From a virus: DNA of 22,684 nucleotides. A program made the translations under genes and the position numbers. Under the pieces are notes generated by a model. It worked only from the letters and a program-made list of their open reading frames with translations, made no database searches and was not told the DNA's origin. Where the stretch lies: the IMG/VR virus record IMGVR_UViG_3300025137_008070, positions 1-22,684 of that record; one strand, written 5' to 3'. Shown here piece by piece: positions 4,139 to 19,163 of this stretch (the first letter of the stretch is position 1; each line of letters starts with the position of its first letter).

Positions 4139-4993
4139 ATGGCAACCCTTAAAGAGCTACTGACTGAAGATGCATCTAAATACATTTGTAGAATACAAAT
4201 AGGTAATTTAACAATACCTTATACAAATATTAAAAAGTTTAATTCAAATAATTTAGTTGTAGATAAACCTACCGATATTGTATTATATAACATTATTACT
4301 GATAAAGTTGATACTATTGATGTAAATTCTATAGTTAAATATACAGTATTGCATAGAGATGATGAGAATAAAAATGAAACTGCAGAATTATCTTTGTTTA
4401 ATGAATATAAAGAAATTATTAAAGATAAAAATGTATATGATAAAATTTTATATAAAGATGTAGTTAGTCATAATTTACATAAAGTATTAAATTTATTTAA
4501 CTTTTCAATTAATAGTGATAATATTATAAACAACAAACCTTTTGATGAAGAAAGAGAAACTATTATATCAAGTTTTATCAAAATAATTCAAAATAAAGTC
4601 GATAAAACGTTATTAGAGTTAGATGAACTTCTAACAAAAACAGATGATGAAGAAGATATTGAAGATATAAACAATATAAAAGAAATCTTTAATGATGTGG
4701 TAAGCGATATGGATCTTAGTGAATTAAATACTTTTACTGATTTGACTGATAACTGGCCACCGTTATTATTACCGTTACCTGATGTAATGACAAATGCTTT
4801 TAACTCCCCTACAACATTTGTAACTGAAGATACTATCGATGAACATATACAAGTAATTGAATCTATAGAAAATATTACTGATAAAGATATGTTATCTAAT
4901 TTTTTAAAAATTTTAGAAAATAATAAAAGTAAATTAACTGACTATCATTATAATACCCTCTATAAAGCAATTAACGATAATTATATATTGTAG
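4139..4993 (+). CDS. Hypothetical protein leading the radical SAM island
   Basis: This 284-residue protein is not recognised. The N-terminus MATLKELLTEDAS has the look of a capsid-targeting leader (L-T-E before Asp), and residues 16-75 look like a small beta domain. Residues 85-200 are helical and charged, with a D/E cluster at about 168-177. A Pro/Leu patch (NWPPLLLPLPDVM) lies near 206-218, and the C-terminus is helical. There is no cysteine cluster and no membrane segment. Its last codons and stop sit inside a 10-bp perfect inverted repeat that also holds the ribosome binding site of the next gene, so the two are probably translationally coupled. It could be a virion protein left of the island boundary or a partner/substrate of the radical SAM enzymes; the sequence does not decide. 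Confidence 0.7.
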   Translation: MATLKELLTEDASKYICRIQIGNLTIPYTNIKKFNSNNLVVDKPTDIVLYNIITDKVDTIDVNSIVKYTVLHRDDENKNETAELSLFNEYKEIIKDKNVYDKILYKDVVSHNLHKVLNLFNFSINSDNIINNKPFDEERETIISSFIKIIQNKVDKTLLELDELLTKTDDEEDIEDINNIKEIFNDVVSDMDLSELNTFTDLTDNWPPLLLPLPDVMTNAFNSPTTFVTEDTIDEHIQVIESIENITDKDMLSNFLKILENNKSKLTDYHYNTLYKAINDNYIL

Positions 4994-5000
4994 AGGGTAT
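4953..5000 (+). promoter_or_regulatory. Inverted repeat sequestering the ribosome binding site of the first radical SAM gene
   Basis: ATACCCTCTA (4953-4962) is perfectly complementary to TAGAGGGTAT (4991-5000), with three more inner pairs possible (one G-U) and a 22-base loop. The right arm carries the stop codon of the upstream gene, the AGAGGG Shine-Dalgarno-like sequence and the first two bases of the ATG at 4999. A ribosome finishing the upstream gene would open the stem, so coupling or translational control is likely. No U-run follows, so it is not a standard terminator. Confidence 0.6.
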
Positions 5001-6024
5001 GAATGTTAATAATTTAAGTATTAAAAATTTTGATGTCGATTACGAAACAAAAAGATGTAATCGAGCGAAATTAGATACTGGATTTCACTGCAATTATAAG
5101 TGTGAATTTTGTTATTACATAGATAGGCTAGATGTTAAAACCCCATTTTCTACAATACAGCAACGTATTAATATACTTCATAAATATGGTATTTCCGAAG
5201 TAGACTTATCTGGAGGTGAAAGTTCAATACATAAAGATTGGTTTAAAATACTAGATTATTGCAATGAAAGATTTGATAATATTAGTTGTTTAAGTAATGG
5301 TTCAGTCTTTTCTAACGAAAAGTTTTTATTAAAATCAAAAAAGCATGGTCTAAAAGAAATATTATTTAGTTTACATGGTTATAATGAAGAAGTGCATGAT
5401 GATATAGTAGGTAGAAAAAATGGTTGGAAGAAAATACATAAAGCTATTAAACTATGTAAGAAACATGATATAAAAGTTAGGATTAATTGCACAGTATATC
5501 AAAAAAATTACAAAGGTTTAGTAGAATATGCTGATATTATAAAGGAAATACAACCATTTCAAGTTAACTTTTTAACGTTAAACTACTGGGATGCCAATAA
5601 AACATTCGAACCTATTGATGATTACGAAGGTCTTACAGATAAAATAAAACAGTGTATTGATCTTATCGTAAATGATACAAAATATATTAATGTAAGATAT
5701 ACCCCTTACTGCTATATGAAGGGTTATGAAAAATATGTATGTAATCAGTATCAACATGTGTATGATATATATGATTGGAATAAGGAAATATATGATTATG
5801 ATGTAGATTTAACTAAAACATACACTGAAAAAGAAAAAATAGATTTAGGTTATTTAAAAGCACAAGACGGTCGACTAGATGGGTGTAAGAAACCTATTAA
5901 ATGTATAAGATGTAAATATTTTAACATCTGCGATGGTATTGAACAGCAACTAGATATAGAAGTACACCCTGAAGAAGGGGAAAAAATTACTGATGTAAAT
6001 TTTTATAGAAAAGATTTTTATTAA
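4999..6024 (+). CDS. Radical SAM enzyme 1 (MoaA/SPASM-like)
   Basis: This is a 341-residue iron-sulfur enzyme expected to cleave S-adenosylmethionine to a 5'-deoxyadenosyl radical. Cys31, Cys35 and Cys38 form the CxxxCxxC cluster-binding motif (CNYKCEFC), and residues 72-74 are the SAM-contacting G-G-E. A partial TIM barrel follows, with the usual N-G-S and H-G strands (LSNGS, FSLHGYNEEVHD). The C-terminus has Cys296, 302, 305 and 311, compatible with an auxiliary iron-sulfur cluster as in SPASM/Twitch proteins. It is the first of six different radical SAM genes and is the only one with a clear Shine-Dalgarno sequence, which is hidden in a hairpin. The substrate is unknown; nearby glycosyltransferases make a sugar, glycan or peptide substrate possible. 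Confidence 0.88.
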   Translation: MNVNNLSIKNFDVDYETKRCNRAKLDTGFHCNYKCEFCYYIDRLDVKTPFSTIQQRINILHKYGISEVDLSGGESSIHKDWFKILDYCNERFDNISCLSNGSVFSNEKFLLKSKKHGLKEILFSLHGYNEEVHDDIVGRKNGWKKIHKAIKLCKKHDIKVRINCTVYQKNYKGLVEYADIIKEIQPFQVNFLTLNYWDANKTFEPIDDYEGLTDKIKQCIDLIVNDTKYINVRYTPYCYMKGYEKYVCNQYQHVYDIYDWNKEIYDYDVDLTKTYTEKEKIDLGYLKAQDGRLDGCKKPIKCIRCKYFNICDGIEQQLDIEVHPEEGEKITDVNFYRKDFY

Positions 6025-6924
6025 ATGAATATACAAAAATGCGGCTATAAAGATTTTAAGCTACATACACTACAATGGTTCATGATAGATGTATGTAATA
6101 TGAAATGTAGTTATTGCATCGAGGGTTTCGGTAATAATGAATATTTAAAAAAATGTGATTTTAATAAAAATAAAACAAAACAAGAATCATATAAAAAGGT
6201 CTTAAAATTACTAAATCTCAAAAAAGTTCCTAAGTTTAATATAGAATTATTAGGAGGAGAACCAACGCTACATCCTAAGTTTAATTATATTCTCGACTCA
6301 TTGGTTGAAATTAATCAGTGTGATAAAATAGAAATAATGACTAATTTAAAAAATGCTAAACGTATATTTGAAAATGTTAAACCGGTTAATAAAATTTTAA
6401 TAAACCCTTCTATACATTTTGAATCATATGATGAAAATTCAATTCAAAGTAATATAAAAAATTTAATAGATAGAGGCTTTAGACTGACCCCTACAGTTAT
6501 GCTGCATGATAAAAGTCAATACTGGGATAAGATGGAAGAGTTTTTTAACTTTTGTTTAGATAACAATATAAAATACGATGTTTCATATCTTTATGATACC
6601 GGGTTTGGTTATAGGTCAAAATATAGTGAAGAGTTTTATAGCATATTTAAAAAATATATAAAAAATGATGATAGAACCTGGCCGTTTCAAGTTGATGGTG
6701 TTCAAGGTAACTATAGTTATGATGATATTATTACCAATAAAATGTCTAATTTAAAAGGTATTAATTGTAAACCTCTAAGGTGGGTTATCGACTATAAGGG
6801 TGGTATATATAATGCGTGTTCTAAAATGCCATTCATCTTATACATGAACAAAGAAACATCAATAAAGTGTCCTTTTGGTACTTGTGGGTGTGATATACAG
6901 TGGGATTATGAAAAGCATTTTTAA
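6025..6924 (+). CDS. Radical SAM enzyme 2 (SPASM-like), paralogue of the 10491 gene
   Basis: This 299-residue protein begins at the base after the previous stop. Cys24, Cys28 and Cys31 (CNMKCSYC) bind the radical SAM cluster, and the G-G-E-P motif is at 77-80 in LLGGEPTLHP. The C-terminus has CKPLRW then cysteines at 248, 265, 282, 287 and 289 (CPFGTCGC), arranged like an auxiliary-cluster domain. It is clearly a relative of the gene at 10491: the shared elements are IDVCNxKCSYC, ELLGGEPTLHP, CxPLxW and a cysteine-rich end. The pair probably arose by duplication within the island or was recruited twice. The next gene starts inside its last 17 bases. The substrate is unknown. Confidence 0.87.
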   Translation: MNIQKCGYKDFKLHTLQWFMIDVCNMKCSYCIEGFGNNEYLKKCDFNKNKTKQESYKKVLKLLNLKKVPKFNIELLGGEPTLHPKFNYILDSLVEINQCDKIEIMTNLKNAKRIFENVKPVNKILINPSIHFESYDENSIQSNIKNLIDRGFRLTPTVMLHDKSQYWDKMEEFFNFCLDNNIKYDVSYLYDTGFGYRSKYSEEFYSIFKKYIKNDDRTWPFQVDGVQGNYSYDDIITNKMSNLKGINCKPLRWVIDYKGGIYNACSKMPFILYMNKETSIKCPFGTCGCDIQWDYEKHF

Positions 6925-7873
6925 ATTAAATAAAAATTATGATATATTCTTATCTCTTACTTGGGAAAATGGTCATGAACATGGGATTAGCGGCCACATA
7001 TATGAGATCATAGATTATTTTTATATTTTAAATAAAACATTTAAAGTTGGTATTTTTTTTGGAGAAAGTATTAATAACTGGTCTGAATTTAAAAAATTAA
7101 TTTTACAAAAATATAATTTTAGTGATTTAGAATTAAAAGATTATAAAAATAATACATTTTATTATAATAGACCAGAAATTATAACTGGAAAGAATATATT
7201 ATTTGTCGATGGTGCGTTGAAGGCTAGATTTGTCAATAATGGTACTATATTAAATTTTAAAAATATATTATCATTTAAATGTTCAAACCATTGCAATCAT
7301 ACACTTTTTGATATACCATATAAAGTACAACTATTATCGGACTTAAGAGTATATTCAGAAATAATACCTGAAGAAAATAAAATAGCATTACATTATATTA
7401 AAAAAATATTGTTTGAAAAATACAAACAAATTGATAAATGTAAAGTTAATAAAACGGCAATGTTATATATAACCTCTAATTGTAGATATATAACTGATAA
7501 ACTATTAACTGATATAACTAATAGATATAATTTTGAAAAATATATAGTAATTACCAATAAACCTGAAAAGTATATTAATTATAGAGATGGACGGGTTGAA
7601 TTTATAAAGCCTGGTATTGATAAACTATTTGAAAAATTTAATACCTATATATACACTCCAATAGATGGTAAATTTGACTGCAGTCCTAGATTAATAGCAG
7701 AGTGTAAATATTATAATAAAGATGTTATTTATCATAATATAGATAATGAATATTTAAAAATTGATAGCGGTTTAAGAGTACGTAGAAGTGATGTTGATAC
7801 TAATTTTAAAACATTATTTTTAAATAATAAAGACCCAATCGTAGGAATACTAAATGAAACAATACATAGATAA
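6908..7873 (+). CDS. Putative GT-B-type glycosyltransferase-like protein
   Basis: The 321-residue product starts at the ATG at 6908, which overlaps the previous gene by 17 bases; an earlier GTG at 6875 would overlap it by 50 and is less likely. The N-terminal part (SLTWENGHEHGISGHIYEII) has the small-residue and His-rich loop seen at the acceptor side of some GT-B enzymes. Near the C-terminus, YTPIDGKFDCSPRLIAECKY resembles the donor-binding region where such enzymes have a conserved acidic/Pro motif and a following helix (SPRLIAECKYYNK). No DxD motif or membrane segment is seen. I assign glycosyltransferase from this pattern and from the neighbours only, and it may be a more distant sugar- or nucleotide-binding protein. 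It overlaps the next gene by 20 bases. Confidence 0.6.
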   Translation: MKSIFKLNKNYDIFLSLTWENGHEHGISGHIYEIIDYFYILNKTFKVGIFFGESINNWSEFKKLILQKYNFSDLELKDYKNNTFYYNRPEIITGKNILFVDGALKARFVNNGTILNFKNILSFKCSNHCNHTLFDIPYKVQLLSDLRVYSEIIPEENKIALHYIKKILFEKYKQIDKCKVNKTAMLYITSNCRYITDKLLTDITNRYNFEKYIVITNKPEKYINYRDGRVEFIKPGIDKLFEKFNTYIYTPIDGKFDCSPRLIAECKYYNKDVIYHNIDNEYLKIDSGLRVRRSDVDTNFKTLFLNNKDPIVGILNETIHR

Positions 7874-8879
7874 AATAAAATCATTTGAATTAATAAAAAA
7901 TGATGATTGGTTCGACTACGATTTAAAAATTACTTTAAAACCTAGTTTTAAGTGTAACCATAAATGTTGGTTTTGTGGGGAATATGATAATAATACTAAA
8001 ACGTGGACTAAAGATCAATGTGATGAAGTCTTATCTAAGTTAAAAGAAATACCAAAAAGTAAGAAAAAAATATTTTTTTATTTCTACGGGGGAGAACCTA
8101 CATTAAGTAAATTTTGGGAATATTTAAACTATGAAATTGTAAAATTATTTCCAGATAAAGAGCTTTTTTTACAAACTCATACAAACTTAAGTTTACCAGT
8201 TAGAAGATTAGAAAAATTTTTAATTAATATTCATAAATTAAAAAATAGTAACCATACAATAGATATATGTAATAGTTATCATATTGGTAAACAACAAGTT
8301 ACTGAGTATATTAAGAAAATGGATATATGTGACAAATACAATAGTCTAGGTTTTTGTTTTTTCAGTACTGAAATACCTAAAAAAGAACAAATGTTAGATG
8401 AAATGGGTCAAATTATACAATCACATCCAACCAAACTTAAAATGAAATTTACTGAAATAGAAAATTTGGCTTTAAAACCTAGTAGTGGTTATGAAGAATA
8501 TGTAAAAGATATAGAACTAGTTGGTGATGATAACGGTAAAAGTTTAGAGTATCGATACTGGATGAAATACTATCCTCAATTTGAAAAATACTTCGAGGAA
8601 AGTTGGAATTTTCTTATAAACGGTAAATTAAAACTAAATTATTCTCATGTTAAAGGTAATAACGTACATAAAAAATTTAGATTCATGAAATGTGAAAGTG
8701 GTAAAAAAAATATAATTATAAACTACGATATGAGAGTGTTTAGATGTAACGATTATAGTTATAAAAATTTAAAATCTATTAACCTATCTGATTTAAATTT
8801 TGAACAATATTTAGATACATGTGAAAGATGCGTTATAACTTCATGTTGCGATGGACTGGACCATAAAAAGACGTTATGA
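7854..8879 (+). CDS. Radical SAM enzyme 3 (SPASM-like)
   Basis: This 341-residue protein carries the CxxxCxxC motif at Cys34, Cys38 and Cys41 (CNHKCWFC), and G-G-E-P at 79-82 in YGGEPTLSKFW. The C-terminal part has FMKCESG, FRCNDYS, and CERCVITSCCDG, a cysteine-rich region fitting one or two auxiliary clusters. The start overlaps the previous gene by 20 bases, and the stop overlaps the next ATG (ATGA), so the whole section is read as one message. It is not closely similar to the other radical SAM proteins here outside the motifs, which suggests a different reaction or substrate. A weak GGA lies seven bases upstream of the start. Confidence 0.87.
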   Translation: MKQYIDKIKSFELIKNDDWFDYDLKITLKPSFKCNHKCWFCGEYDNNTKTWTKDQCDEVLSKLKEIPKSKKKIFFYFYGGEPTLSKFWEYLNYEIVKLFPDKELFLQTHTNLSLPVRRLEKFLINIHKLKNSNHTIDICNSYHIGKQQVTEYIKKMDICDKYNSLGFCFFSTEIPKKEQMLDEMGQIIQSHPTKLKMKFTEIENLALKPSSGYEEYVKDIELVGDDNGKSLEYRYWMKYYPQFEKYFEESWNFLINGKLKLNYSHVKGNNVHKKFRFMKCESGKKNIIINYDMRVFRCNDYSYKNLKSINLSDLNFEQYLDTCERCVITSCCDGLDHKKTL

Positions 8880-9538
8880 AATTATCTATATTAATATTAA
8901 CCCACAATCGACCTAAATTATTTAAAAGGTGTATTGATAGTGTTATAAAAAATCTACCAGATTTTGATATAGAAATACTTGTAAATAACGATAGTAACGA
9001 TATAGAAGAAGTTTATAGCGAAAATATAACTATAAAATATTTTTATAAAAAATATAAAGAATTAGGTGAAACATATAGATTTTTATATTTAGAAAGTAAA
9101 GGGGAATATATATTTTTCTTAGAAGATGATGATTATATTTTACCTGCTTTTTTTAAACATATAAAACTTAAACAAGATCTGTATATATCAAATTATATAT
9201 CTAAACCTCTACAAAAAACTTATAATTTTAAAACTGTATTTAAAGAAATAGATTGTACATTATATTACAAAGATAGTTTAAATTTTAAAGAATATATCTC
9301 ACTATATAACCCAAGATATTTTCAATTAACTCAGATAGTTTTCCGGAAAAGTTCTGCAATAAATTTCTTTAAGAGTAATTTTAAATCGACTTTAGATTTT
9401 GATTATAATTTATTTAAAAGTTTAAAAATTGATACATTTAAATGTATAAAATCACCCATATGGGTTCAAACTAATGATGGTGAAGATAATTTAAGTTTTT
9501 CTGAATTAAATACAGATAAAAGGTACCCTATAAAATGA
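8876..9538 (+). CDS. GT2 family glycosyltransferase
   Basis: This 220-residue protein has the GT-A fold of family 2 glycosyltransferases. The N-terminus LSILILTHNRPKLFKRCIDS is the usual first strand and helix, LVNNDSND is the second strand with the nucleotide-binding acid, and FFLEDDDYILP (83-86 E-D-D-D) contains the metal-binding DxD. There is no membrane segment, so a soluble enzyme that moves a sugar from a nucleotide-sugar donor is expected. The acceptor is unknown. It is shorter than a typical 250-300-residue GT2 domain. ATGA overlaps on both sides tie it between two radical SAM genes, so both activities probably act on the same molecule. Confidence 0.85.
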   Translation: MKLSILILTHNRPKLFKRCIDSVIKNLPDFDIEILVNNDSNDIEEVYSENITIKYFYKKYKELGETYRFLYLESKGEYIFFLEDDDYILPAFFKHIKLKQDLYISNYISKPLQKTYNFKTVFKEIDCTLYYKDSLNFKEYISLYNPRYFQLTQIVFRKSSAINFFKSNFKSTLDFDYNLFKSLKIDTFKCIKSPIWVQTNDGEDNLSFSELNTDKRYPIK

Positions 9539-10470
9539 AAACTACACCAATACCACAAGCTCAAGTTTTTTTAAATAACACCTGTTCATTAAAGTGTAAT
9601 TTTTGTATGAATAAACATATAAAAAATGAATCTTCTGATTACCCATGGCCATGGGAAAATAAAGATGATAATTTAAAGGTAGGTAGAATAAATGATATAA
9701 AAAAATATATAGACTATCTAATTGAAATGGGTGTCAGGAGAATAGAATTAGGTACAACTATCGGTGAACCATTAGAACATGATATAGATGATTTGAATGA
9801 AATTTTTAGGTATTTAGAAATTAACCCAGACATAGAAAGTTATTTTTTCTATACAAATTTAACCCAATTGAAAGATAAACATATTGAAATTTTTGACCAG
9901 TATAAAAAATTACAGATAAAAATTAGTTGTTATGGTTTAACTTCAAAACAGTTTAAACAACAGACTGGTTATGAATTATGGTACAAATTTAAAACTAATC
10001 TTAAAAAATTGGTAACAGTTAAACGTAAAATGAAAATTTTACTAGCACTACGCGCGCCAATTAAAAATGATGAACAGCAACTTAACTGGTTAAAATTAAA
10101 AGCTATTAGTATTAAGTCTCATCATGATGTAGTATTTGAAGAAACTGCTATACATTTTAATTGGAAACATACAATTGATTTTAAGAAAATTAAAAACCAA
10201 AAACCTAACCAACATAAAGGACACTGTGGTATGATATACACTGATTGTGGTATTTTAGGCAACGGAGATTTTACTATTTGCGCATGGTTAGATGTCTACG
10301 GAGATGGTAAAGTTGGTAACGTGTTTAAAGATGCACCTAAAGAGATGCTACAACTACGACAAAAGATAATAGACGATCAAAATAATGGTATATTTAACAA
10401 TATATGTAAATATTGTAAATTTTATGTACCTGCTAATATAGGAAAGGCTGATCAAGCTGGTACTATATAA
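9535..10470 (+). CDS. Radical SAM enzyme 4 with unusual GGE variant
   Basis: This 311-residue protein has Cys17, Cys21 and Cys24 in CSLKCNFC near the N-terminus. The position normally occupied by G-G-E-P reads T-I-G-E-P (75-79, in GTTIGEPLEHD), so one glycine is replaced but the glutamate is kept. The C-terminal SPASM-type region contains HCGMIYTDCGILGNGDFTIC and ICKYCKFYVP; the G-x-G-D/x-x-x-C pattern is typical of SPASM auxiliary cluster binding. It is the last gene of the first block and ends 20 bases before the next promoter element. Its substrate is unknown. SPASM enzymes commonly act on peptides, sometimes on sugars or cofactors (family knowledge). Confidence 0.86.
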   Translation: MKTTPIPQAQVFLNNTCSLKCNFCMNKHIKNESSDYPWPWENKDDNLKVGRINDIKKYIDYLIEMGVRRIELGTTIGEPLEHDIDDLNEIFRYLEINPDIESYFFYTNLTQLKDKHIEIFDQYKKLQIKISCYGLTSKQFKQQTGYELWYKFKTNLKKLVTVKRKMKILLALRAPIKNDEQQLNWLKLKAISIKSHHDVVFEETAIHFNWKHTIDFKKIKNQKPNQHKGHCGMIYTDCGILGNGDFTICAWLDVYGDGKVGNVFKDAPKEMLQLRQKIIDDQNNGIFNNICKYCKFYVPANIGKADQAGTI

Positions 10471-10477
10471 TAAATTA

Positions 10478-10485
10478 ATTAAATA
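10478..10485 (+). promoter_or_regulatory. T4-late-type promoter element ATTAAATA for the 10491 gene
   Basis: ATTAAATA, then CATAA, then the ATG at 10491, so exactly five bases. It lies in a 20-base gap, the only true gap between 4999 and 15096. It separates the first block of the island from the second. Confidence 0.55.
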
Positions 10486-10490
10486 CATAA

Positions 10491-11588
10491 ATGTTTGATA
10501 CCATAACAGCTGCGGGTAACACAAACTATAAATTACTAACTTTTTCTTGGGATATTATAGATGTATGCAACTATAAATGTAGCTATTGTAGTGCAAAAGC
10601 TTTTAATAAGCATACATTTAAAAAAATAAAAGATAAAAAAGCTACATGGCAGAATGTAATAAAAATATTGTCTCTTAAAAAAATAAAAATACCATTTACT
10701 GTTGAATTACTCGGCGGTGAGCCGACTTTACACCCGGATATATATGAAATAGTTAAAGAATTATGTGCTATAGATAATTGTATTCAAGTTGAAATAACAA
10801 CTAATCTATCAAAAAGTATAGATTTTTTTAAACAATTTGATAAACCTGAAACTGATAAAGTTGATATAGTTGCTTCATACCATCCAGAATATTTTACACC
10901 AAAATTTATTGATAAATTAATTGAAATAGACAAATGTAAACATTTAACTATTACCCCTCTTATAAATTTATTTCATGAAAAAGAATATTGGCAATCTACT
11001 TTAGATTTAGTCAATACATTAAAGAATAATAAAATTAATTTTGCTGGTAATTTATTATATGAATTTGAAGGTAATGACTTTACTCCAAAATATACTAAAG
11101 AATTTTGGGACATTTTTGAACCTATTTTTTATAACAATCCTTTAGATGAAAGTATGTATATAGAAGGAAGTAATAAATTAACAAACGATAATATAGATAA
11201 ATATTTTAACGAAAAACTAGTTAACTACGATCAAAATTTTTTAATAAATCATCGAAAGTTAATAAAAGAAGAAAAGTATAAAAATAATAACTCAGTTATA
11301 ATTAATCGAGCTCGTATATTCAGAGGCGATATTAATGGTAAATCAGTAAATAAAACATTAACAGATGCTGATATTTATAAACATAAATTGTATCAGTATG
11401 AAGGTTGGGATTGCAGACCGTTAATGTGGAAGATCAATATGAATGGTACTATTCAAAATTCATGTACCGGTAAACTAATACAGTTAATGGAGATAGATAA
11501 TAATAATCTGACTAGCTGTGTTACATGTCCGTTAAAATATTGTGATTGTAATACCAAATATCAGTATGTAAAAAGAAAAAAATCATGA
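10491..11588 (+). CDS. Radical SAM enzyme 5 (SPASM-like), paralogue of the 6025 gene
   Basis: This 365-residue protein has Cys26, Cys30 and Cys33 in IDVCNYKCSYC, and G-G-E-P at 75-78 in LLGGEPTLHP. The C-terminus has CRPLMW, then cysteines in NSCTGK and CVTCPLKYCDC, an auxiliary-cluster arrangement. It shares the N- and C-terminal motif sets with the 299-residue protein encoded at 6025, but carries an extra charged helical section of about 60-70 residues (around 210-290) before the C-terminal cysteines. It is the first gene of the second block and has a late-type promoter element just upstream, with no ribosome binding site. ATGA overlaps the next gene. Confidence 0.87.
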   Translation: MFDTITAAGNTNYKLLTFSWDIIDVCNYKCSYCSAKAFNKHTFKKIKDKKATWQNVIKILSLKKIKIPFTVELLGGEPTLHPDIYEIVKELCAIDNCIQVEITTNLSKSIDFFKQFDKPETDKVDIVASYHPEYFTPKFIDKLIEIDKCKHLTITPLINLFHEKEYWQSTLDLVNTLKNNKINFAGNLLYEFEGNDFTPKYTKEFWDIFEPIFYNNPLDESMYIEGSNKLTNDNIDKYFNEKLVNYDQNFLINHRKLIKEEKYKNNNSVIINRARIFRGDINGKSVNKTLTDADIYKHKLYQYEGWDCRPLMWKINMNGTIQNSCTGKLIQLMEIDNNNLTSCVTCPLKYCDCNTKYQYVKRKKS

Positions 11589-12418: not shown

Positions 12419-13344
12419 AAAATATAATATATACATGTTTCTCATGCCCAGATGATAAGCGTCCTAAATTTTTAGACTTACATGTAGATCTAATAAAAAC
12501 GTATGCAAAAAAATGCAAATGCGATTTTAAAATAATGGATGTCGATAAAAATTATAATCCTCCAGTTTTTACCGTATACGAGGCTTATAAAGAATTTGCA
12601 GAATCTAATTATGATAAAATGTTATATATTGATTGGGATGTTTTAATATCTTTAAAAAGTGATAATATATTCGATAGTTATAATAAAGATAAATTTACTG
12701 CATATAAATGGAAAACAGGGTTTACCGATAAACATATTATTATTGATACTATGTCTGATTTTAATGAATATGTATCTACCCCGGGTCTAGACGGAAAGGA
12801 TAATCTACTGCTACCTGAATTTATAAAAAAAATATGTGGTAGGGATGTTAGTTTAAATTTTTTAAGGTATTATGTAAATGATGCAATATCTGGAGGAGTT
12901 ATGATGTTTGATAGAGAGACTATGAATACCTTCTTGTATAATGGTCATATAACATGGGAAGAAATATATGATAAAATAACTTTTCTTAGAGAAGTACAGG
13001 ATTTAGAACATAATAAACTATTAAATGCAGGTGGAGTTTTATCTCATTTTGCTATTAATTATCTATTATATATTAATGATATTAAAGTAACTGCTTTAGA
13101 TAAAAAATGGAATACAAATAGCGTAACTGGTAAAATGATGCCAGATGAGTTCTTCTATAATTTTAATTGTGGGGGCGACGAATTAATAACAGGTAATGAT
13201 TTTAATGAAAAAAATAATGCAGCCCTAAAGTATGTTATTAACAATAGGTCTTCCTTTTTTAATACGAAAGAAAAATTTACAAACTTTATAAAAAAATATA
13301 ATGCAACTGATATAATTAAAAGTAAAGGTAATAATGGAAAATGA
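12415..13344 (+). CDS. GT-A-type (GT8/GT34-like) glycosyltransferase
   Basis: This 309-residue protein starts MKNIIYTCFS, followed by a region describing a moving nucleotide-sugar fold: LIKTYAKKCKCDFKIMDVD, then MLYIDWDVLIS with D73-W-D75 as the metal-binding DxD. The D-x-D with preceding hydrophobic strand (DKMLYIDWDVLI) is characteristic of GT8/GT34-type and related alpha-galactosyl or hexosyl transferases. Later NDAISGGVMMFDRETM and NAGGVLSHFAINYLL match the usual acceptor-side strand (S-G-V-M-x-F). It is soluble with no transmembrane segment. The exact family number is uncertain. It overlaps the transketolase N-terminal gene by 11 bases. Confidence 0.78.
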   Translation: MKNIIYTCFSCPDDKRPKFLDLHVDLIKTYAKKCKCDFKIMDVDKNYNPPVFTVYEAYKEFAESNYDKMLYIDWDVLISLKSDNIFDSYNKDKFTAYKWKTGFTDKHIIIDTMSDFNEYVSTPGLDGKDNLLLPEFIKKICGRDVSLNFLRYYVNDAISGGVMMFDRETMNTFLYNGHITWEEIYDKITFLREVQDLEHNKLLNAGGVLSHFAINYLLYINDIKVTALDKKWNTNSVTGKMMPDEFFYNFNCGGDELITGNDFNEKNNAALKYVINNRSSFFNTKEKFTNFIKKYNATDIIKSKGNNGK

Positions 13345-14023
13345 TATAATAAAACTATCATATGAAAATGATCTTTCTCATATACCATCTGCTCTTAGTA
13401 TGTTAAACTACTTAGATAGGTTGTATTATAATAAAATTTTATCTAAACAAAATCATACAGTTATAGGTAAACCTCATGGGGCTCAATCGTATTTTTATAT
13501 ATGGAAAAAATATGGATTAATTAATGATTACAACAATATATCTACGTCATTAAAAAATAATGATGTAGATTTTTTAGATTTTTCGATAGACATACTTGGT
13601 GATGCATTAGGTATAGGTTCAGGTATTGCTCATGTTAGTGATAAGCATGTATGGGTTAATATAGGTGATGGTGTATTGCAAATGGGTAATACATTAGAGG
13701 CTATACAATATATCGGTACTAAACAAATAAAAAATATATTATGTACTGTAGACTTCAATAAATCCCAACGATGTGGTAATTTATTGATAGATATTGAACC
13801 AGTAATAAATTTTTGTAAAGAGTATAACTGGAATGTATATCGCTGCAACGGACATGATAACGATGAAATCGACTCTATACTAAATAAACTTAAATTTAAT
13901 AAACCTACAATTATATTTTTCGATACTATTAAAGGACATGGAGTAGATTTTATGCAAAAAAATATAAAAGAATGGCATTATAAAAAAATAGATGAGAAAT
14001 ACTATAGACAGATTTTTGGGTAA
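13334..14023 (+). CDS. Transketolase N-terminal (pyrophosphate-binding) subunit
   Basis: This 229-residue protein corresponds to the first domain of transketolase, which binds the diphosphate of thiamine diphosphate. Visible family elements, in order: VIGKPHGAQSYFYIWKKYG (the S-K-G-H-A region, with P in place of G), LGDALGIGSGIA, then I-G-D-G at 110-113 followed 29 residues later by N142 in VDFNKSQ (the GDG-x26-30-N metal and diphosphate motif), and GHGVDFMQKN then EWHYKK near the end. A two-gene split (N and C subunits) is well known in archaea and some bacterial sugar-biosynthesis clusters. Together with the next gene it would move a two-carbon unit onto an aldose or related aldehyde. The substrate pair is unknown. 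Confidence 0.9.
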   Translation: MENDIIKLSYENDLSHIPSALSMLNYLDRLYYNKILSKQNHTVIGKPHGAQSYFYIWKKYGLINDYNNISTSLKNNDVDFLDFSIDILGDALGIGSGIAHVSDKHVWVNIGDGVLQMGNTLEAIQYIGTKQIKNILCTVDFNKSQRCGNLLIDIEPVINFCKEYNWNVYRCNGHDNDEIDSILNKLKFNKPTIIFFDTIKGHGVDFMQKNIKEWHYKKIDEKYYRQIFG

Positions 14024-14480
14024 ACTACATAATAAGGATATCTACTTAATACATGGTGATATGTGGCATTTTGATTATTTTAAAAATAGAATGCCAAATA
14101 ATGTCATTGACTGCGGTATTCAAGAACCTAATATTGTAAATATAGCATGTGGTATTGCTAGTCAAGGTAAAACAGTTTTTATATATGGTGTATCGGGTAT
14201 GATATTGCATAGAGCATATGAGCAAATTAAACTAAATGTTAAAAGTTGGGCTGAATATAAAGGTAAGATTATTTTTATAAATTCTGGACATAATGGTTGT
14301 TATACTGACGCTGGTAGAGGTCATTTAATTGATGATGATATTGCTCTTTGCAAAGCTTTAAATATAAAAACTCATACACCTAGTACCAGAGGTGGTTTAA
14401 TAAGGTATATAAAAAATAAATTAAAAGATAAAACTGGTACATGTTTTATTAGACTAGGGTGGGATAATTGTGAATGGTAA
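13992..14480 (+). CDS. Transketolase C-terminal (pyrimidine-binding) subunit, lacking the last domain
   Basis: This 162-residue protein matches the second transketolase domain: DCGIQEPNIVNIACGIASQG contains the catalytic glutamate (E45) in G-I-x-E-x-N, and YTDAGRGHLIDDDIALCKAL corresponds to the G-x-D-G-x-T-H-x-x-x-E-D region. Two-gene transketolase C subunits are normally about 300 residues because they also contain a third domain. Here the protein stops at about the end of domain two, so only 391 residues in total cover both genes. It starts at an ATG inside the previous gene (32-base overlap) and ends inside the next (11-base overlap). Whether it works as a full transketolase, or as a reduced TPP enzyme, is not known. 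Confidence 0.87.
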   Translation: MRNTIDRFLGKLHNKDIYLIHGDMWHFDYFKNRMPNNVIDCGIQEPNIVNIACGIASQGKTVFIYGVSGMILHRAYEQIKLNVKSWAEYKGKIIFINSGHNGCYTDAGRGHLIDDDIALCKALNIKTHTPSTRGGLIRYIKNKLKDKTGTCFIRLGWDNCEW

Positions 14481-15096
14481 AAAAATTTTATTAACCGGTA
14501 GTAACGGGTTTTTAGGTAAACATTTATATAAAGCTTTATCAATTCATAATGATGTTATTGAATATAATAAAGATGTAAGATTACCAATTACAGATAATTT
14601 AGATATTGATACAATCATTCATTTAGCATCTCCTACTGATTTTGAAGACTTAAAAGATAATAATAAAGTAGTTACTACTATTATTGATGGTACTTGTAAT
14701 ATGTTAAATCTAGCAAATAAAACAAAAAGTAAGTTTATATTTGCTAGCACTATGGGTATATACGAAAAGGATACTAGATATGCATATGGTAATTGTAAAT
14801 TAGCTATGGAAAATTATATTACTAGTACTAATCACAATTATGTAATATTACGAATACCTCGGGTGTATCATAAAAGTAAGATAAAAGGTTTAATGAAACG
14901 GTTAAGAAGGGGTATGATTAACTCTGCAGATTTAAATAATACTGTTAATTTTATATATATAGATGATTTTTTAGACCAGACCATTAAATGTATTGATGAT
15001 ACTAATATAGTTTATGAATATATTAATATAAAGACAGATACAATAAAAAATATATCACATATGTGTGATATAAGTATTGAAATTCCTGAAATATAA
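14470..15096 (+). CDS. NAD-dependent epimerase/dehydratase (extended SDR)
   Basis: This 208-residue protein starts with a GTG inside the end of the transketolase C-subunit gene. It has the Rossmann G-x-x-G-x-x-G at G10/G13/G16 (TGSNGFLGKHL), the D-x-x-x-x-L-A-S strand (IIHLAS), and FASTMGIY followed by Y106-x-x-x-K110, the SDR catalytic Tyr and Lys. Typical nucleotide-sugar epimerases are about 310 residues; this one lacks around 100 residues of the substrate-binding end. It probably converts a nucleotide sugar, but the specificity (epimerase, dehydratase or reductase) cannot be told. It is the last gene of the second block; the stop lies just before an early-type promoter. Confidence 0.85.
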   Translation: MNGKKILLTGSNGFLGKHLYKALSIHNDVIEYNKDVRLPITDNLDIDTIIHLASPTDFEDLKDNNKVVTTIIDGTCNMLNLANKTKSKFIFASTMGIYEKDTRYAYGNCKLAMENYITSTNHNYVILRIPRVYHKSKIKGLMKRLRRGMINSADLNNTVNFIYIDDFLDQTIKCIDDTNIVYEYINIKTDTIKNISHMCDISIEIPEI

Positions 15097-15104
15097 TATA
15101 TAAT
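15077..15104 (+). promoter_or_regulatory. Sigma70-type promoter TTGAAA-N16-TATAAT inside the island
   Basis: TTGAAA at 15077-15082, then 16 bases, then TATAAT at 15099-15104, seven bases upstream of the GTG at 15112. It lies partly in the end of the SDR gene. The same hexamers and spacer occur upstream of folE2. It would allow host-polymerase expression of the last block of the island. Confidence 0.55.
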
Positions 15105-15111
15105 TAATATT

Positions 15112-15729
15112 GTGAATAACCCATGGTTATGTGTAAAGGATTTTGAGCAATCTATTTGTAATTATACCGGTAGTAAGTATGCAGTAGCTGTTGATAGTTG
15201 TACTAATGCAATTTTTTTATCACTAATATACTATAAAAAATTTATTAACAAAAAAGATATTACAATAACTATACCGAGTAGAACGTATATATCTGTACCA
15301 ATGCAAATAATAAATGCTGGTTATAAACTAAACTTAATAGATTATGAGTGGATTGGTTCATATAAATTAAAAAATACTCCTATTATTGATTCGGCTCAAA
15401 ATTTTACAAAAGACATGTATATAAAAGATACATTTCAATGTATATCTTTTCAGTTTAAAAAACATTTACCAATTGGTAGGGGAGGAGCAATATTAACAGA
15501 TGATGCTAATGCATACGAGTGGTTAATCAAAGCGAGACACGATGGTAGAAATATGTATACTGAATATGGTAATATAGGTAATATAGATATAATTGGTTAT
15601 CACTGTCCTCTATTACCTAATGAAGCAATTAAAGGTCTAGAATTATTATTAAATATGAATTTAACGTCTAATAATATACCTGGTAGATCTACAGATTACC
15701 CTATAATAAATAAAAATTTATTTAAATGA
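15112..15729 (+). CDS. DegT/DnrJ/EryC1-type sugar aminotransferase, short
   Basis: This 205-residue protein starts with GTG. It shows the DegT/StrS fold-type I PLP pattern: YTGSKYAVAVDSCTNAIFLSL (the N-terminal G-x-x-x-A-x-x-x-S-x-x-N/T-A signature), P-I-I-D-S-A-Q (D93, which contacts the pyridine ring), and SFQFKKHLPIGRGGAILTDD with K117 as the likely PLP lysine. Enzymes of this family are usually about 370 residues; this one ends after the large domain and keeps only a short C-terminal end with P-L-L-P-N-E-A-I-K. It could aminate a keto-sugar, or be a reduced paralogue. The stop overlaps the next gene (ATGA). No ribosome binding site is seen. Confidence 0.82.
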   Translation: MNNPWLCVKDFEQSICNYTGSKYAVAVDSCTNAIFLSLIYYKKFINKKDITITIPSRTYISVPMQIINAGYKLNLIDYEWIGSYKLKNTPIIDSAQNFTKDMYIKDTFQCISFQFKKHLPIGRGGAILTDDANAYEWLIKARHDGRNMYTEYGNIGNIDIIGYHCPLLPNEAIKGLELLLNMNLTSNNIPGRSTDYPIINKNLFK

Positions 15730-16616
15730 GAGTTTTAATAACAGGTCATAACGGATTTTTAGGTAAATCTATAGTTTCAAAATTATATAAAAATATAGAA
15801 ATTATTGGTATAGATAAAGTAATAGATAAAAATACACCAATTAAATCTATAGAACATGACTTAATGTTTTATAATAATGCTGTTGAGGAAGAAATTAAAT
15901 CTAGTGATATTATAATACATTTAGCCGGTCCTGTTGGAGTTGAAAGAATTGATTATAATTATGATACTTACTTACATGATATGTTAACTATAAATTTAAA
16001 TGTATTCAATTTAGTTAAAAAATACAATAAGAAAATTATTTTTGCTAGCACGTCAGAGGTTTATCATGATGTAAAGTCTGCCAAAGAAAATGATAATTTA
16101 GTTATTGGTAGTCCGGATAAATCTAGATGGGGGTATGCTTCCGGTAAGTTAACTTCAGAATTTTTATGTAAATCGTTGTGTCAAAATAGTTTAATACTAA
16201 GATTTTTTAATATAACTGGTGTAGGAGATAATAAAGGCGTTTTACATAAAATGATAACAGCAATAAAAACAAATAATAGTATACAGTTATACGGTTCTGG
16301 AAATCAAGTTAGATCTTTTTGTGATCAAAGAGATGCTGTCGAGTTTATTAAACTTGCTATTGATAATGATATTTTTAATGGTGATATTTTTAATGTAGGT
16401 TCATCAGAAAATTGTATAACAATATCAGATTTAGCTATTTTATGTAAAAATATATCTAAAAAAAATATTAATATAAACAAAATAGATTATGATAAAATTT
16501 TCTCAAAAAATCATGATGATATTTTATTTCGAAGTCCGTGCTGTAAAAAAATGAATACAATATATAAGTCTAAATATACTAATGTGGATATAATTGAAAG
16601 TATGTTAAATGAATAA
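15726..16616 (+). CDS. NAD-dependent sugar epimerase/dehydratase (extended SDR)
   Basis: This 296-residue protein is the more complete of two SDR enzymes in the island. It shows G7-x-x-G10-x-x-G13 (ITGHNGFLGKS), IIIHLAGPVGV with the N-x-x-x-x-x-N loop (TINLNVFNLVK), FASTSEVY and the catalytic Y137-A-S-G-K141, then LRFFNITGVG and a conserved R-S-F-x-x-x-x-D motif (QVRSFCDQRDAVEF) that holds the nucleotide sugar. This resembles UDP-glucose 4-epimerase, UDP-glucuronate decarboxylase and dTDP-glucose dehydratase; the residues do not decide between them. The stop overlaps the next gene by eight bases, and the start has an ATGA overlap. Confidence 0.9.
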   Translation: MRVLITGHNGFLGKSIVSKLYKNIEIIGIDKVIDKNTPIKSIEHDLMFYNNAVEEEIKSSDIIIHLAGPVGVERIDYNYDTYLHDMLTINLNVFNLVKKYNKKIIFASTSEVYHDVKSAKENDNLVIGSPDKSRWGYASGKLTSEFLCKSLCQNSLILRFFNITGVGDNKGVLHKMITAIKTNNSIQLYGSGNQVRSFCDQRDAVEFIKLAIDNDIFNGDIFNVGSSENCITISDLAILCKNISKKNININKIDYDKIFSKNHDDILFRSPCCKKMNTIYKSKYTNVDIIESMLNE

Positions 16617-17262
16617 TAATATTTTAATAATTGTAGCACATCCAGACGACGCAGAGTTTGGTATGGGAGGTACTATATCTAAATTATCTAAAACTAATAC
16701 TATTACTCTTTGTGTATTGTGTAGAGGTAATAGACCAGGCAGTCATTCTGATGTAGAGGTTGATCGTAAAAAGGTACTTAATGAAAATGTAAAAAGTTTA
16801 GGTATTTCAAAATTAATACAACATGTATATGATGATGTAAGTTTGGATAAGCATCCCTTTTTATCAATTAGTAGTTATATATCATCTATTATATCACAAA
16901 TAAAACCTGATACTGTTTATACAAATTATAACGGTGATATACATATTGATCACGAGTTAGTATCGAAAGCAGTAAGAGTCGCTTGCAGACCAAGACGTAA
17001 CTGTTCTGTTAAGGCATTATATGAATTTTCAATACCGGGCAGCGGAGAATGGAATTTTAAGGGTATAAATTATAATACATTTTATAATATTGAAGAAAAT
17101 GTAAAAATAAAATATAATTGTATAGATAAGTATATAACTGAGTTACAACCGGCTCCAGACCCTATAAGTAGTGAATATATAAAATATCGAGACTTATATT
17201 ATGGTAGTATTTCAGGGTATAAACAAGCAGAACCATTTGTTTGCATTTTTAATATGTTATGA
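16609..17262 (+). CDS. PIG-L family N-acetylglucosamine-type deacetylase
   Basis: This 217-residue protein carries the PIG-L/LmbE zinc motifs: A-H-P-D-D at 10-14 (VAHPDDAEFGMGG) and H112-x-D114-H115 (GDIHIDHELVSKA). The first strand IIVAHPDD, VYTNYNGDIHIDH and the C-terminal FSIPGSGEW are characteristic. Members remove acetyl (or acyl) groups from N-acetylglucosamine-like sugars in GPI-anchor precursors, mycothiol, bacillithiol and antibiotic pathways (family knowledge). Here it most likely deacetylates a sugar made by the neighbouring SDR and aminotransferase genes. It is the only clear zinc hydrolase of this type in the window. Translation is coupled by overlaps on both sides. Confidence 0.93.
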   Translation: MNNNILIIVAHPDDAEFGMGGTISKLSKTNTITLCVLCRGNRPGSHSDVEVDRKKVLNENVKSLGISKLIQHVYDDVSLDKHPFLSISSYISSIISQIKPDTVYTNYNGDIHIDHELVSKAVRVACRPRRNCSVKALYEFSIPGSGEWNFKGINYNTFYNIEENVKIKYNCIDKYITELQPAPDPISSEYIKYRDLYYGSISGYKQAEPFVCIFNML

Positions 17263-17996
17263 TTTTTAAGCGTAAAAAGGAAAATATATTAGTAGTTGGT
17301 AACGGTGAAATTGGTAAATCAATTCATAAGTTATATAATAGCGTCTATTACAATGTAACTGTTGTAGATATTAATTCCTCTTTAGTTAAAGTTAAGGATA
17401 TTAATGTAATGAATATTTGTATACCATATAGTGAACAATTTGTTGATATAGTAAAAAATTATATAACTAAATTTAACCCGAAGTTAACAATAATACACAG
17501 CACAGTTTTACCTGGGTCAACAAAAAAAATTAAAACTTCAAATATAGTATATTCCCCTGTTGTTGGTACTCATCCGGATTTATATAAAAGTATAAAAACA
17601 TTTACAAAATTTATTGGTGCAAACGATAAAAGTAGTCTTAAACTTGCAAAAAAACATTTTAAAAAATTAAAAATTAAATATAAAATTTTTAAAAATACTA
17701 AAACTGTCGAAACGTCAAAAATATTATCTACATTATATTATGGTATGTGTATAGCTTTTCATAATGATGTAGATTTATTATGTAAGAAGAATAATTTACC
17801 TTATGAACAAATTATGACTGAATGGAATACTGAATACAATAAAGGTTATACTGCTTTAGGTAAAATAAATGTAGTAAGGCCTGTACTTAATTCTCCTAAA
17901 GGTAAAATTGGCGGGCATTGTATTATTAATAATGCTGAAATAATTAAAAATTATTTTAAAAGTGATATAATCGATTACGTATTAAAATTGAAATGA
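17259..17996 (+). CDS. UDP-glucose/GDP-mannose dehydrogenase-like protein, short
   Basis: This 245-residue protein begins with a Rossmann motif G14-x-G16-x-x-G19 (VVGNGEIGKS). It then shows IIHSTVLPGSTKKI (the S-T-V-x-P-G-[ST]-T of UDP-glucose dehydrogenases) and YSPVVGTHPDL, followed by VETSKILSTLYYGMCIAFHNDVDLLC, like the central helix of that family. Near the end, G-G-H-C at 218-221 corresponds to the catalytic cysteine loop G-G-x-C (C221). Full enzymes are 390-450 residues with a C-terminal UDP-binding domain; that domain is missing here. The protein might oxidise a sugar or alcohol, or be a simplified oxidoreductase related to the family. It has ATGA overlaps on both sides. Confidence 0.8.
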   Translation: MIFKRKKENILVVGNGEIGKSIHKLYNSVYYNVTVVDINSSLVKVKDINVMNICIPYSEQFVDIVKNYITKFNPKLTIIHSTVLPGSTKKIKTSNIVYSPVVGTHPDLYKSIKTFTKFIGANDKSSLKLAKKHFKKLKIKYKIFKNTKTVETSKILSTLYYGMCIAFHNDVDLLCKKNNLPYEQIMTEWNTEYNKGYTALGKINVVRPVLNSPKGKIGGHCIINNAEIIKNYFKSDIIDYVLKLK

Positions 17997-18523
17997 AACC
18001 AATATTAATGATACACGAATTTACGGAAGAGTTTTTAAATTTACCGTTAGAAGATTATGTATTAACTTTTGATGATGGGTTATATACTCAATATCTATTT
18101 TTAGATAAGTTGTTAAAAATAAATACCGAGAAATATTTTTTTATTAGTAGTGGTATAGTTTGTCCTGAAGATGAAATGCAAGACAGTAGCTTTATTACAT
18201 GCGTAGATGCACATAAAAACTCATATAAAGGTGTATACAACAACTATATGAAATGGTCGCAAATTAAAAATATAAATGAACAAGATAATTGTACTGTTGG
18301 GTGCCATAGTCATTTTCATATGAAAAAAACCCCTGACTGTGTTGAGTGTATTATAGCTGATAATAGGTATATGTTAAATGATTTTAATAAACATTTAGGA
18401 AAAATACCTGATATATTTTGTTTCCCATTCAATAAAGAAACAGGTTTATATAAAGAAATTTTAACTAAAAGAGGCTTTAATAAATTTTACGGTAAAGGAA
18501 GAATAGATATAAATGAATTATAA
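17993..18523 (+). CDS. NodB-type polysaccharide deacetylase (CE4)
   Basis: This 176-residue protein has the NodB motif 1 T-F-D-D-G at 25-29 (D27 base, D28 metal ligand) and motif 2 H-S-H-F-H at 105-109 (the H-x-x-x-H metal pair). The remaining motif region FCFPFNKETGLY corresponds to the R-x-P-[WY]-G loop, with P-F-N in place of R-P-x-G, so the arginine is missing. Typical CE4 domains are about 200 residues. No signal peptide is present, so it probably works in the cytoplasm on a lipid-linked or soluble precursor, unlike secreted chitin or peptidoglycan deacetylases. It overlaps its neighbours by 4 and 11 bases. Confidence 0.85.
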   Translation: MKPILMIHEFTEEFLNLPLEDYVLTFDDGLYTQYLFLDKLLKINTEKYFFISSGIVCPEDEMQDSSFITCVDAHKNSYKGVYNNYMKWSQIKNINEQDNCTVGCHSHFHMKKTPDCVECIIADNRYMLNDFNKHLGKIPDIFCFPFNKETGLYKEILTKRGFNKFYGKGRIDINEL

Positions 18524-19163
18524 AATTATACATCAAAGTTGGAGTAATAAATTCCTACCCATAAAATATAAAAAAAATCAACTTACATTAAAAAAATATT
18601 TTAACGATTGTGAGTTTAAATTATGGACCGATGAAGATAATAATAATTTTATAAAAAATAAATTTCCAGATTTTTATCCTATATATTCTAATTATAATAA
18701 TAAAATTAATCAGATAGATTCAGCAAGATTTTTTTACTTATATGAATATGGCGGGTTATATATAGATTTAGATGTATTATTAACTAAGGATATTAGATGT
18801 TTACTAGATGATAAATGTTGCATGTTTTCGCAGGATTCAAATAATAGTTATTATAATCACCAAAATTTACCTTTTTATATAGATTCTATGTGCATGTATA
18901 GTGAACCTAAAAATATCTTTATTGGTAAAATAATTGAACATTTATATAAAAATGAACCTATCGATATAGTTAACGATTTGGATAACGTTTTTTTAACTGG
19001 ACCAGGAATGGTAACTAATTTATACAATAAACTGCAACCAAATATTAAATTAAATCATAATAAAATTATAGTTAAAAACGATTTAGATTTATATAATGAA
19101 ATTTATGGTATACATTTTTGTAGTAGTACATGGGTTGGAAAAAAATACCATTTAACTAAATAG
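18513..19163 (+). CDS. GT32 (OCH1-like) glycosyltransferase
   Basis: This 216-residue protein begins with IIHQSW (I-I-H-Q-x-W, residues 5-10) and carries the GT32 signature A-R-x-x-x-L-Y-E-Y-G-G-L-Y-I-D-L-D (about 71-87), with D85-L-D87 as the metal-binding DxD. The end (FLTGPGM, CSSTWVGKKYHL) is the typical GT32 tail. Members add mannose, galactose or related sugars in cell-surface or capsule biosynthesis (family knowledge). No membrane segment is seen. It is the last clear gene of the accessory island. The TAG stop lies within a late-type promoter element for the next gene. Confidence 0.9.
   Translation: MNYKIIHQSWSNKFLPIKYKKNQLTLKKYFNDCEFKLWTDEDNNNFIKNKFPDFYPIYSNYNNKINQIDSARFFYLYEYGGLYIDLDVLLTKDIRCLLDDKCCMFSQDSNNSYYNHQNLPFYIDSMCMYSEPKNIFIGKIIEHLYKNEPIDIVNDLDNVFLTGPGMVTNLYNKLQPNIKLNHNKIIVKNDLDLYNEIYGIHFCSSTWVGKKYHLTK
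19155..19162 (+). promoter_or_regulatory. T4-late-type element ACTAAATA upstream of the 19170 gene
   Basis: ACTAAATA ends seven bases before the ATG at 19170, two more than the N5 seen at other starts. It overlaps the last codons and the stop of the GT32 gene. The core TAAATA is the same as in the other elements. Confidence 0.4.

Follow-up and report, generated by a model that had tools for sequence, protein, structure and literature searches.

We find that a gene island in a T4-like phage sequence is a real, conserved phage biosynthetic system. The sequence, hereafter the window, comprises all 22,684 bases of IMG/VR virus record IMGVR_UViG_3300025137_008070 and is probably a genome fragment. 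The island spans positions 4139-19163 with 19 open reading frames (ORFs), all on the + strand, with inner gaps of at most 20 bp and overlaps mostly of 4-32 bp, and this tight packing makes its expression as a unit plausible. The reading we favour, tentatively and somewhat short of an even chance, is that the island is a conserved, membrane-free cytosolic operon of T4-like phages that makes and tailors a sugar for a soluble acceptor, with a fibre-type protein of the phage itself as the likeliest candidate. The island genes, which include six radical S-adenosylmethionine (rSAM) proteins, two short-chain dehydrogenases/reductases (SDRs) and several glycosyltransferases (GTs), are listed below, preceded by the candidate acceptor gene; E-values refer to Pfam unless they stand with a solved relative.

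3382-4104, +: o3382, hypervariable Ser/Thr/Gly-rich protein without Cys, candidate acceptor
4139-4993, +: o4139, variable gene at the same site upstream of rSAM1 in relatives; no match in family-model searches, NCBIfam included
4999-6024, +: rSAM1, the island's most conserved member (1.1e-18; CX3CX2C and CX2CX5C)
6025-6924, +: rSAM2 (1.3e-8)
6908-7873, +: u6908, predicted GT-B-fold glycosyltransferase (AlphaFold2 model and fold matches; alternative TTG start at 6875)
7854-8879, +: rSAM3 (3.1e-10)
8876-9538, +: GT2 glycosyltransferase (1.9e-10)
9535-10470, +: rSAM4 (6.2e-8)
10491-11588, +: rSAM5 (1.2e-10)
11585-12418, +: rSAM6 (3.4e-10; CX3CX2C)
12415-13344, +: ORF earlier called GT8-like, with DxD-type motifs alone
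13334-14023, +: TKN, thiamine diphosphate (ThDP)-binding half of a transketolase (1.3e-11; GDG motif)
13992-14480, +: TKC, transketolase Pyr half, 162 amino acids (4e-6, exactly the cut-off; GIQEPN; no third domain)
14470-15096, +: SDR1, short (208 amino acids), reductase-like SDR (Epimerase, 6.7e-14)
15112-15729, +: DegT-type aminotransferase, short (205 amino acids), accessory (1.9e-15)
15726-16616, +: SDR2 (3.5e-34; nearest solved relatives ArnA decarboxylase domains, 7.9e-19)
16609-17262, +: PIG-L deacetylase (1.3e-19; nearest solved relative BshB, 6p2t, 2.4e-10)
17259-17996, +: UGD, UDP-sugar-dehydrogenase-like, short (245 amino acids), accessory, below Pfam cut-offs
17993-18523, +: NodB polysaccharide deacetylase (4.4e-6; TFDDG and HSHFH)
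18513-19163, +: GT32-type glycosyltransferase (Gly_transf_sug, 3.2e-14)

Family models confirmed the six rSAM proteins, the transketolase halves, the SDRs, PIG-L, NodB, GT2 and GT32 that an earlier sequence-only reading of the window had named. All six rSAM proteins passed the cut-off of Pfam PF04055 and kept the CX3CX2C motif, which in rSAM6 argues against a QueE-type site when set against the motif familiar from QueE. rSAM1 also carried CX2CX5C, yet all of its NCBIfam matches shown lay below cut-off, and it is not classed here as a SPASM-type maturase. TKN and TKC retained their motifs but do not make up a full transketolase, as the C-terminal domain is absent from TKC. PIG-L scored above the Pfam cut-off with AHPDD and HxDH motifs, as did NodB with TFDDG and HSxxH; the YxxxK motif of SDR1, missed by the pattern check, was found by eye as YGNCK. 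Other assignments of that reading held only in part: the aminotransferase matched DegT, but is only 205 amino acids long and lies outside the conserved core, and the dehydrogenase retained a weak similarity while falling below the cut-offs of both Pfam (21.7 versus 25.4 and 19.4 versus 27 bits) and NCBIfam (43.6 versus 189.8), which does not identify it as a UDP-sugar dehydrogenase. The GT8-like label of 12415-13344 was not borne out, with no match in Pfam, PHROGs, NCBIfam or PDB. By contrast, the reading had overlooked u6908, which matched nothing in Pfam or NCBIfam and only a function-less family in PHROGs. An AlphaFold2 model built from 23 sequences reached a mean pLDDT (predicted local distance difference test score) of 91.2 and retrieved GT-B glycosyltransferases in Foldseek (best E 1.4e-4, TM-score about 0.45). 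Structural alignment with VIA-align 2 superposed 269 residues on PimA (Z 17.3, root-mean-square deviation 3.2), with a Z of 16.1 for BshA, and u6908 is accordingly modelled as a GT-B enzyme.

Comparison of the neighbourhoods in other phages, which the sequence-only reading had proposed as a check, showed that the gene set recurs and is thus more than chance. rSAM1 located 15 viral loci and the TKC profile 40, the latter contigs encoding 27 distinct TKC proteins. Among the 23 distinct loci with at least 18 kb of sequence, at a match threshold of 100 bits, we found TKN in 23, GT2, SDR1 and PIG-L in 22 each, rSAM1 and NodB in 20 each, SDR2 in 18 and u6908 in 15; TKC, as the query, is present in 23/23 by selection, and the count for u6908 is too low wherever the gene falls outside the 10 kb flank. 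rSAM3 (6), GT32 (4), UGD (2) and DegT (0) were less frequent, and across all 27 distinct loci DegT occurred in none and UGD in three, for which reason we regard both as accessory. The usual order was u6908/rSAM1, (rSAM3), GT2, rSAMs, variable genes, TKN, TKC, SDR1, SDR2, PIG-L, NodB, (GT32), with rSAM1 identities of 69-81% in the nearest loci and one exception, L110, holding GT2, TKN and TKC alone. Judged by these profile matches, the conserved core is rSAM1, the predicted GT-B enzyme, GT2, TKN, TKC, SDR1, SDR2, PIG-L and NodB, shuffled yet recognisable in many phages. A search for near-identical DNA among named phages returned no match.

Several other genes accompany the related islands. A halogenase-like ORF, recognised by motif and length, lies in 13 of the 23 loci, usually between TKN and TKC; L118:11054-12319 matches Pfam Trp_halogenase (1.3e-61), and the TKC of L118 equals that of L113, one of the 13. 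Halogenase genes are also present in the Campylobacter phages CP21 and IBB_35, HTVC008M and numerous cyanophages. The variable parts of related islands, or their vicinity, further contain a 2-oxoglutarate oxygenase (L121:5123-5767), a sulfotransferase (L136:14869-15513) and a cytidylyltransferase (L120:12642-13310), and in some contigs IscU-like and IscA-like genes for iron-sulfur assembly near the island (L121:15425-15802, L123:13784-14152) could supply the rSAM enzymes.

A further feature of the island is its lack of membrane segments. Over 19-residue stretches, mean hydropathy stayed below 1.9 in all 19 window proteins and in all 218 genes of at least 150 amino acids from the 14 homologous-island loci given, while the same measure flagged 5/133 proteins of Campylobacter phage CP220, 8/147 of the 185 kb relative G001 and 4/14 of a Methylococcales locus (L167). 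The island therefore apparently encodes no flippase, polymerase or membrane phosphoglycosyltransferase. This speaks against a pathway of the lipid-linked O-antigen or capsule type and in favour of a soluble acceptor, although the phage could borrow such machinery from its host.

Of two statements of the sequence-only reading about the setting of the island, the shared late promoter code stood in part, and the position between virion genes found no support within the window. The exact T4-type element TATAAATA was absent from the + strand of the window and had two copies on the − strand, against 15.4 expected; a TAAATAAT-type box, however, preceded 28/205 genes in G001, a 33.5-fold enrichment over an inside-gene control. 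In the window, a looser TAAATAA box lay within 45 bp of 6/26 starts checked, four outside the island (2484, 3382, 19367 and 19822) and two inside (rSAM3 at 7854 and SDR2 at 15726), and it preceded neither 4139 nor 4999. As to position, family searches of the window flanks gave no virion family match, whereas the homologous islands of L124 and L139 have fibre-like structural genes after them. Directly after the island, 19170-19358 encodes a histone-H1-like Hc1 protein (Pfam 1.5e-16); further on, 19822-20712 encodes an unassigned 296-residue protein with a kinase-like DLNAHN...D pattern seen by eye.

Since SDR2 is ArnA-like and PIG-L BshB-like, the most economical reading is that a cytosolic amino- or pento-sugar would be transferred, deacetylated and edited by rSAM enzymes. 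SDR2, resembling ArnA and UDP-glucuronic acid decarboxylases, and SDR1, aided here by UGD and DegT, could yield a nucleotide-activated amino- or keto-sugar, and the minimal split transketolase might add a two-carbon unit to a sugar or take one away. The GT-B enzyme, GT2 and GT32 would transfer sugars to a soluble acceptor, after which PIG-L and NodB may remove acyl groups, and rSAM1 with the variable rSAMs could diversify the product by dehydrogenation, epimerisation or new carbon or sulfur bonds. The acceptor would most likely be a fibre-type protein of the phage itself, hypervariable and encoded next to the island (here o3382), giving a decorated virion surface. This reading draws on gene content, operon packing, the conserved core, the motifs where checked, the GT-B fold model and the lack of membrane segments; every substrate, the acceptor and the benefit, perhaps altered adsorption or protection, are our proposals. 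The hypervariability of o3382, the fibre-like genes after the L124 and L139 islands, and the CP220 and Pacearchaeota relatives described below also count in its favour.

Several points weigh against this reading. As an acceptor, o3382 is a candidate only: the protein, devoid of cysteine and 17-45% identical to nine relatives, gave a low-confidence model (pLDDT 53.9) with a beta-rich part and no significant match in the fold search. The missing virion families in the window flanks count on the same side, as does G001, where gp23 (20 kb) and the sheath gene (127 kb) are both distant from the island (68.5-87 kb). The catalytic motifs were verified by pattern alone, and comparable pelagimyophage islands have been read as modifying the host O-chain (PMC7029224).

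That last interpretation, in which the host surface glycan is remodelled during infection through the host flippase and polymerase, causing serotype conversion or superinfection exclusion, is unlikely here but deserves serious weight. GT-rich hypervariable pelagimyophage islands with rSAM cassettes have been interpreted in print as host-glycan modifiers (PMC7029224), the sugar-activation enzymes and deacetylases of our island would fit, and the O-antigen-like locus L167 includes a distantly related split transketolase of bacterial type. Nonetheless, no membrane protein of any kind was detected among the 19 and 218 island genes. Phage glycan-conversion loci usually include membrane glycosyltransferases or flippases, an expectation that the island does not match. 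A rather improbable alternative is that the rSAM proteins are peptide maturases and that the locus modifies a polypeptide in the manner of ribosomally synthesized and post-translationally modified peptides (RiPPs), with glycosylation secondary. Elsewhere among phages, the island is often found next to a protein with a (CTC[N/D]CNY)n repeat, here called Cys-heptad, flanked by peptide-maturase-like rSAMs, and the best NCBIfam match of rSAM1 was the sactipeptide maturase AlbA (4.6e-19), although the match fell far short of the cut-off of that model. However, the rSAMs beside Cys-heptad proteins differ from those of the window, the best models for rSAM2-6 were MoaA, viperin, twitch and AF0577, all below cut-off, and the gaps of at most 20 bp leave no space for a small precursor gene among the island genes, so that the island does not qualify as a RiPP locus.

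Hypermodification of DNA or nucleotides is very improbable as the outcome of the pathway. A folE2 gene lies downstream (21003-22055), a QueD-like gene lies nearby in L126 (18537-19190), and the annotation of CP220 includes QueC/D/E-like genes; yet folE2 is on the − strand outside the island, and it and the QueD-like gene likely belong to a separate 7-deazaguanine pathway. Such modification would have no need for deacetylases and several GTs, and rSAM6 lacks the QueE-type motif. Least expected of all is a small diffusible glycoside resembling an aminoglycoside or bacillithiol, for which the proximity of PIG-L to BshB and of the u6908 fold to BshA and PimA would speak. Aminoglycoside pathways do combine rSAM, SDR, PIG-L and DegT parts; against this, we recognised neither a scaffold synthase nor an exporter in the island, DegT lies outside the core, and the link to fibre-like neighbours would go unexplained.

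The Cys-heptad proteins were characterised in the phages that carry them. The repeat, which is C-terminal, near-C-terminal or internal, was first seen in CP220 gp140, which adjoins TKC, and in several island loci. Cys-heptad proteins noted include:

L139:188-787; L111:175-933; L017:6816-7604; L020:6166-6678: Cys-heptad proteins
L157:2933-4537: Cys-heptad protein, CP220 gp140
L031:14821-15273: Cys-heptad protein with a variant repeat

An exact degenerate pattern of two repeats matched 38 viral contigs, 20 of which are by name among the 40 TKC contigs; these contigs are related, eight with an identical protein, and the counts are not independent. rSAM1 was found at 1e-10 in 26/38 (weakly in G339), and 10 of the other 12 have PF04055 genes, the two negatives being short contigs in which the motif lies close to one end; the PF04055 check gave 13 positives among the 15 records given, and rSAM genes are present in 36/38 contigs overall. 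The nearest CX3CX2C ORF was often 4-526 bp from the Cys-heptad gene on the same strand. Of the 30 adjacent rSAMs listed, the 27 given all matched the model of the ranthipeptide maturase PapB with E-values no higher than 1e-5, and also many other rSAM models; their profile had 5wgg, which we take to be a SCIFF maturase, as its best solved relative (1.4e-31). Two of the six Cys-heptad proteins scanned contain a Peptidase_S74 chaperone domain. From these associations, the protein and its maturase-like rSAMs look like a RiPP-like phage module, which may be a more novel find than the island itself. The motif is absent from the window and from 14/15 island contigs examined, including the window's near relatives and G001, with G003 having it. 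We dropped the Cys-heptad protein as a substrate of the window rSAMs because the adjacent rSAMs are of a different kind, 12/38 motif contigs (several of them fragments) lack rSAM1 and the motif is missing from the relatives of the window.

A wider proposal, possible though doubtful, is that T4-like phages post-translationally remodel their own adsorption fibres: the core would assemble and edit a fibre glycan, and in many phages a RiPP-like module of rSAMs beside a (CTC[N/D]CNY)n fibre-type protein would crosslink that fibre or one next to it. Should a virion protein prove to be the acceptor, phages would be applying radical enzymology together with sugar chemistry to their own surface, and receptor-binding diversity would arise outside the amino-acid code, hidden from host-range prediction. 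A function would then also emerge for the numerous rSAM genes in Campylobacter phages, with the CP220 relatives as a cultured test system.

Among cellular genomes, a Bdellovibrionales metagenome-assembled genome (G013:C15; L171-L172; a 52 kb contig) resembles the island in holding rSAM1, u6908, TKN, TKC, PIG-L, SDR1, SDR2, NodB, GT2 and more rSAMs, but differs in having another gene order on both strands and an rSAM1 ORF of only 168 amino acids. By eye, its flanks are SUF-like, two-component and ammonium-transporter genes. Like the Pacearchaeota and Methylococcales loci described next, it has no known product, and the bacterial relative with the same order and a known product that would have spoken against the sequence-only reading was not found. 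The same locus (L171, G013:C15:1-20000, and L172) encodes a Cys-rich protein of 150 amino acids beside two rSAMs, with PapB the best NCBIfam match. Split transketolases at 1e-15 occurred in 50/290 Bdellovibrionota genomes, the phage-like type only in G013 (228 bits; others at most 95 bits). A Pacearchaeota contig ends with rSAM, rSAM, TKN and a 162-residue TKC beside an SDR-like ORF. L167 likewise has adjacent TKN and TKC beside nucleotide-sugar-type genes, RfbF/RfbG-like by eye, but its TKC is about 300 rather than 162 amino acids and no rSAM1 lies in the stretch. A bacterial scan with rSAM1 (the best 80 of 131 relatives, forming 79 loci, of which 46 were mapped) retrieved chiefly distant arrays of rSAM genes from Elusimicrobia, DPANN, candidate phyla radiation (CPR) and Myxococcota; among the 46, the core was present only in L030 and L031, of which L030 resembles a phage contig binned with bacterial ones. 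DPANN, CPR and Elusimicrobia genomes contain arrays of several rSAM1-like genes (L051, L054, L061, L064, L075 and others).

Among cultured phages, rSAM1 matched only 15 Campylobacter records, at about 48-52%, in 50,697 named phage records, and TKC matched Campylobacter phages, four short 'Listeria phage' records and one unnamed phage; the SDR2 search returned generic epimerases and was uninformative. CP220 carries rSAM1, u6908, TKN, TKC, SDR1, SDR2, PIG-L and NodB with a UGD match, whereas the GT2, DegT and GT32 profiles found nothing in it. Its sequences are part of the rSAM1, u6908, SDR2, PIG-L and NodB profiles, which inflates those scores, while the pairwise matches stand alone and the TKN, TKC and SDR1 profiles were built without them. 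In its layout SDR2, PIG-L and NodB are contiguous and the other core genes scattered.

The sequence-only reading had described a possibly new biosynthetic system that matches no well-known locus. The second part agrees with our results, since the set is conserved in many phages and open-licence literature yielded no paper describing the gene set, its product or the motif CTCNCNY; its novelty must be qualified by CP220's scattered core, by the rSAM-rich Campylobacter phages (PMC2853527) and by the pelagimyophage islands (PMC7029224). Firehammervirus members CP220, CPt10 and IBB_35 (PMC2853527, PMC3322345) resemble the window in being rich in rSAM proteins, of which they have 11-12, and in carrying UGD, SDR2-PIG-L-NodB and both transketolase halves, but their genes are scattered rather than forming one operon. 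The CP220 work reports 11-12 rSAM proteins with an interchangeable module holding five and leaves their function open (PMC2853527); where a role is discussed in the genus, it is metabolic fitness or DNA protection (PMC2853527, PMC3322345). The host recognition cluster of pelagimyophages and cyanomyophages is likewise a large hypervariable island of T4-like aquatic phages with GTs, sugar enzymes and rSAM cassettes, unlike ours in that transketolase, PIG-L, NodB and a conserved core go unmentioned in the passages describing it (PMC7029224). In pelagimyophages it sits between VrlC and gp14 with tail fibres (PMC7029224); for our island, position is seen in G001 as given above, the window being a 22.7 kb fragment, and its content, a hypervariable island with GTs and rSAM genes, agrees with that of the cluster. 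This cluster is the closest precedent, and we regard the island, as far as literature searches show, as a variant of the known GT and rSAM islands of T4-like aquatic phages with a core so far undescribed.

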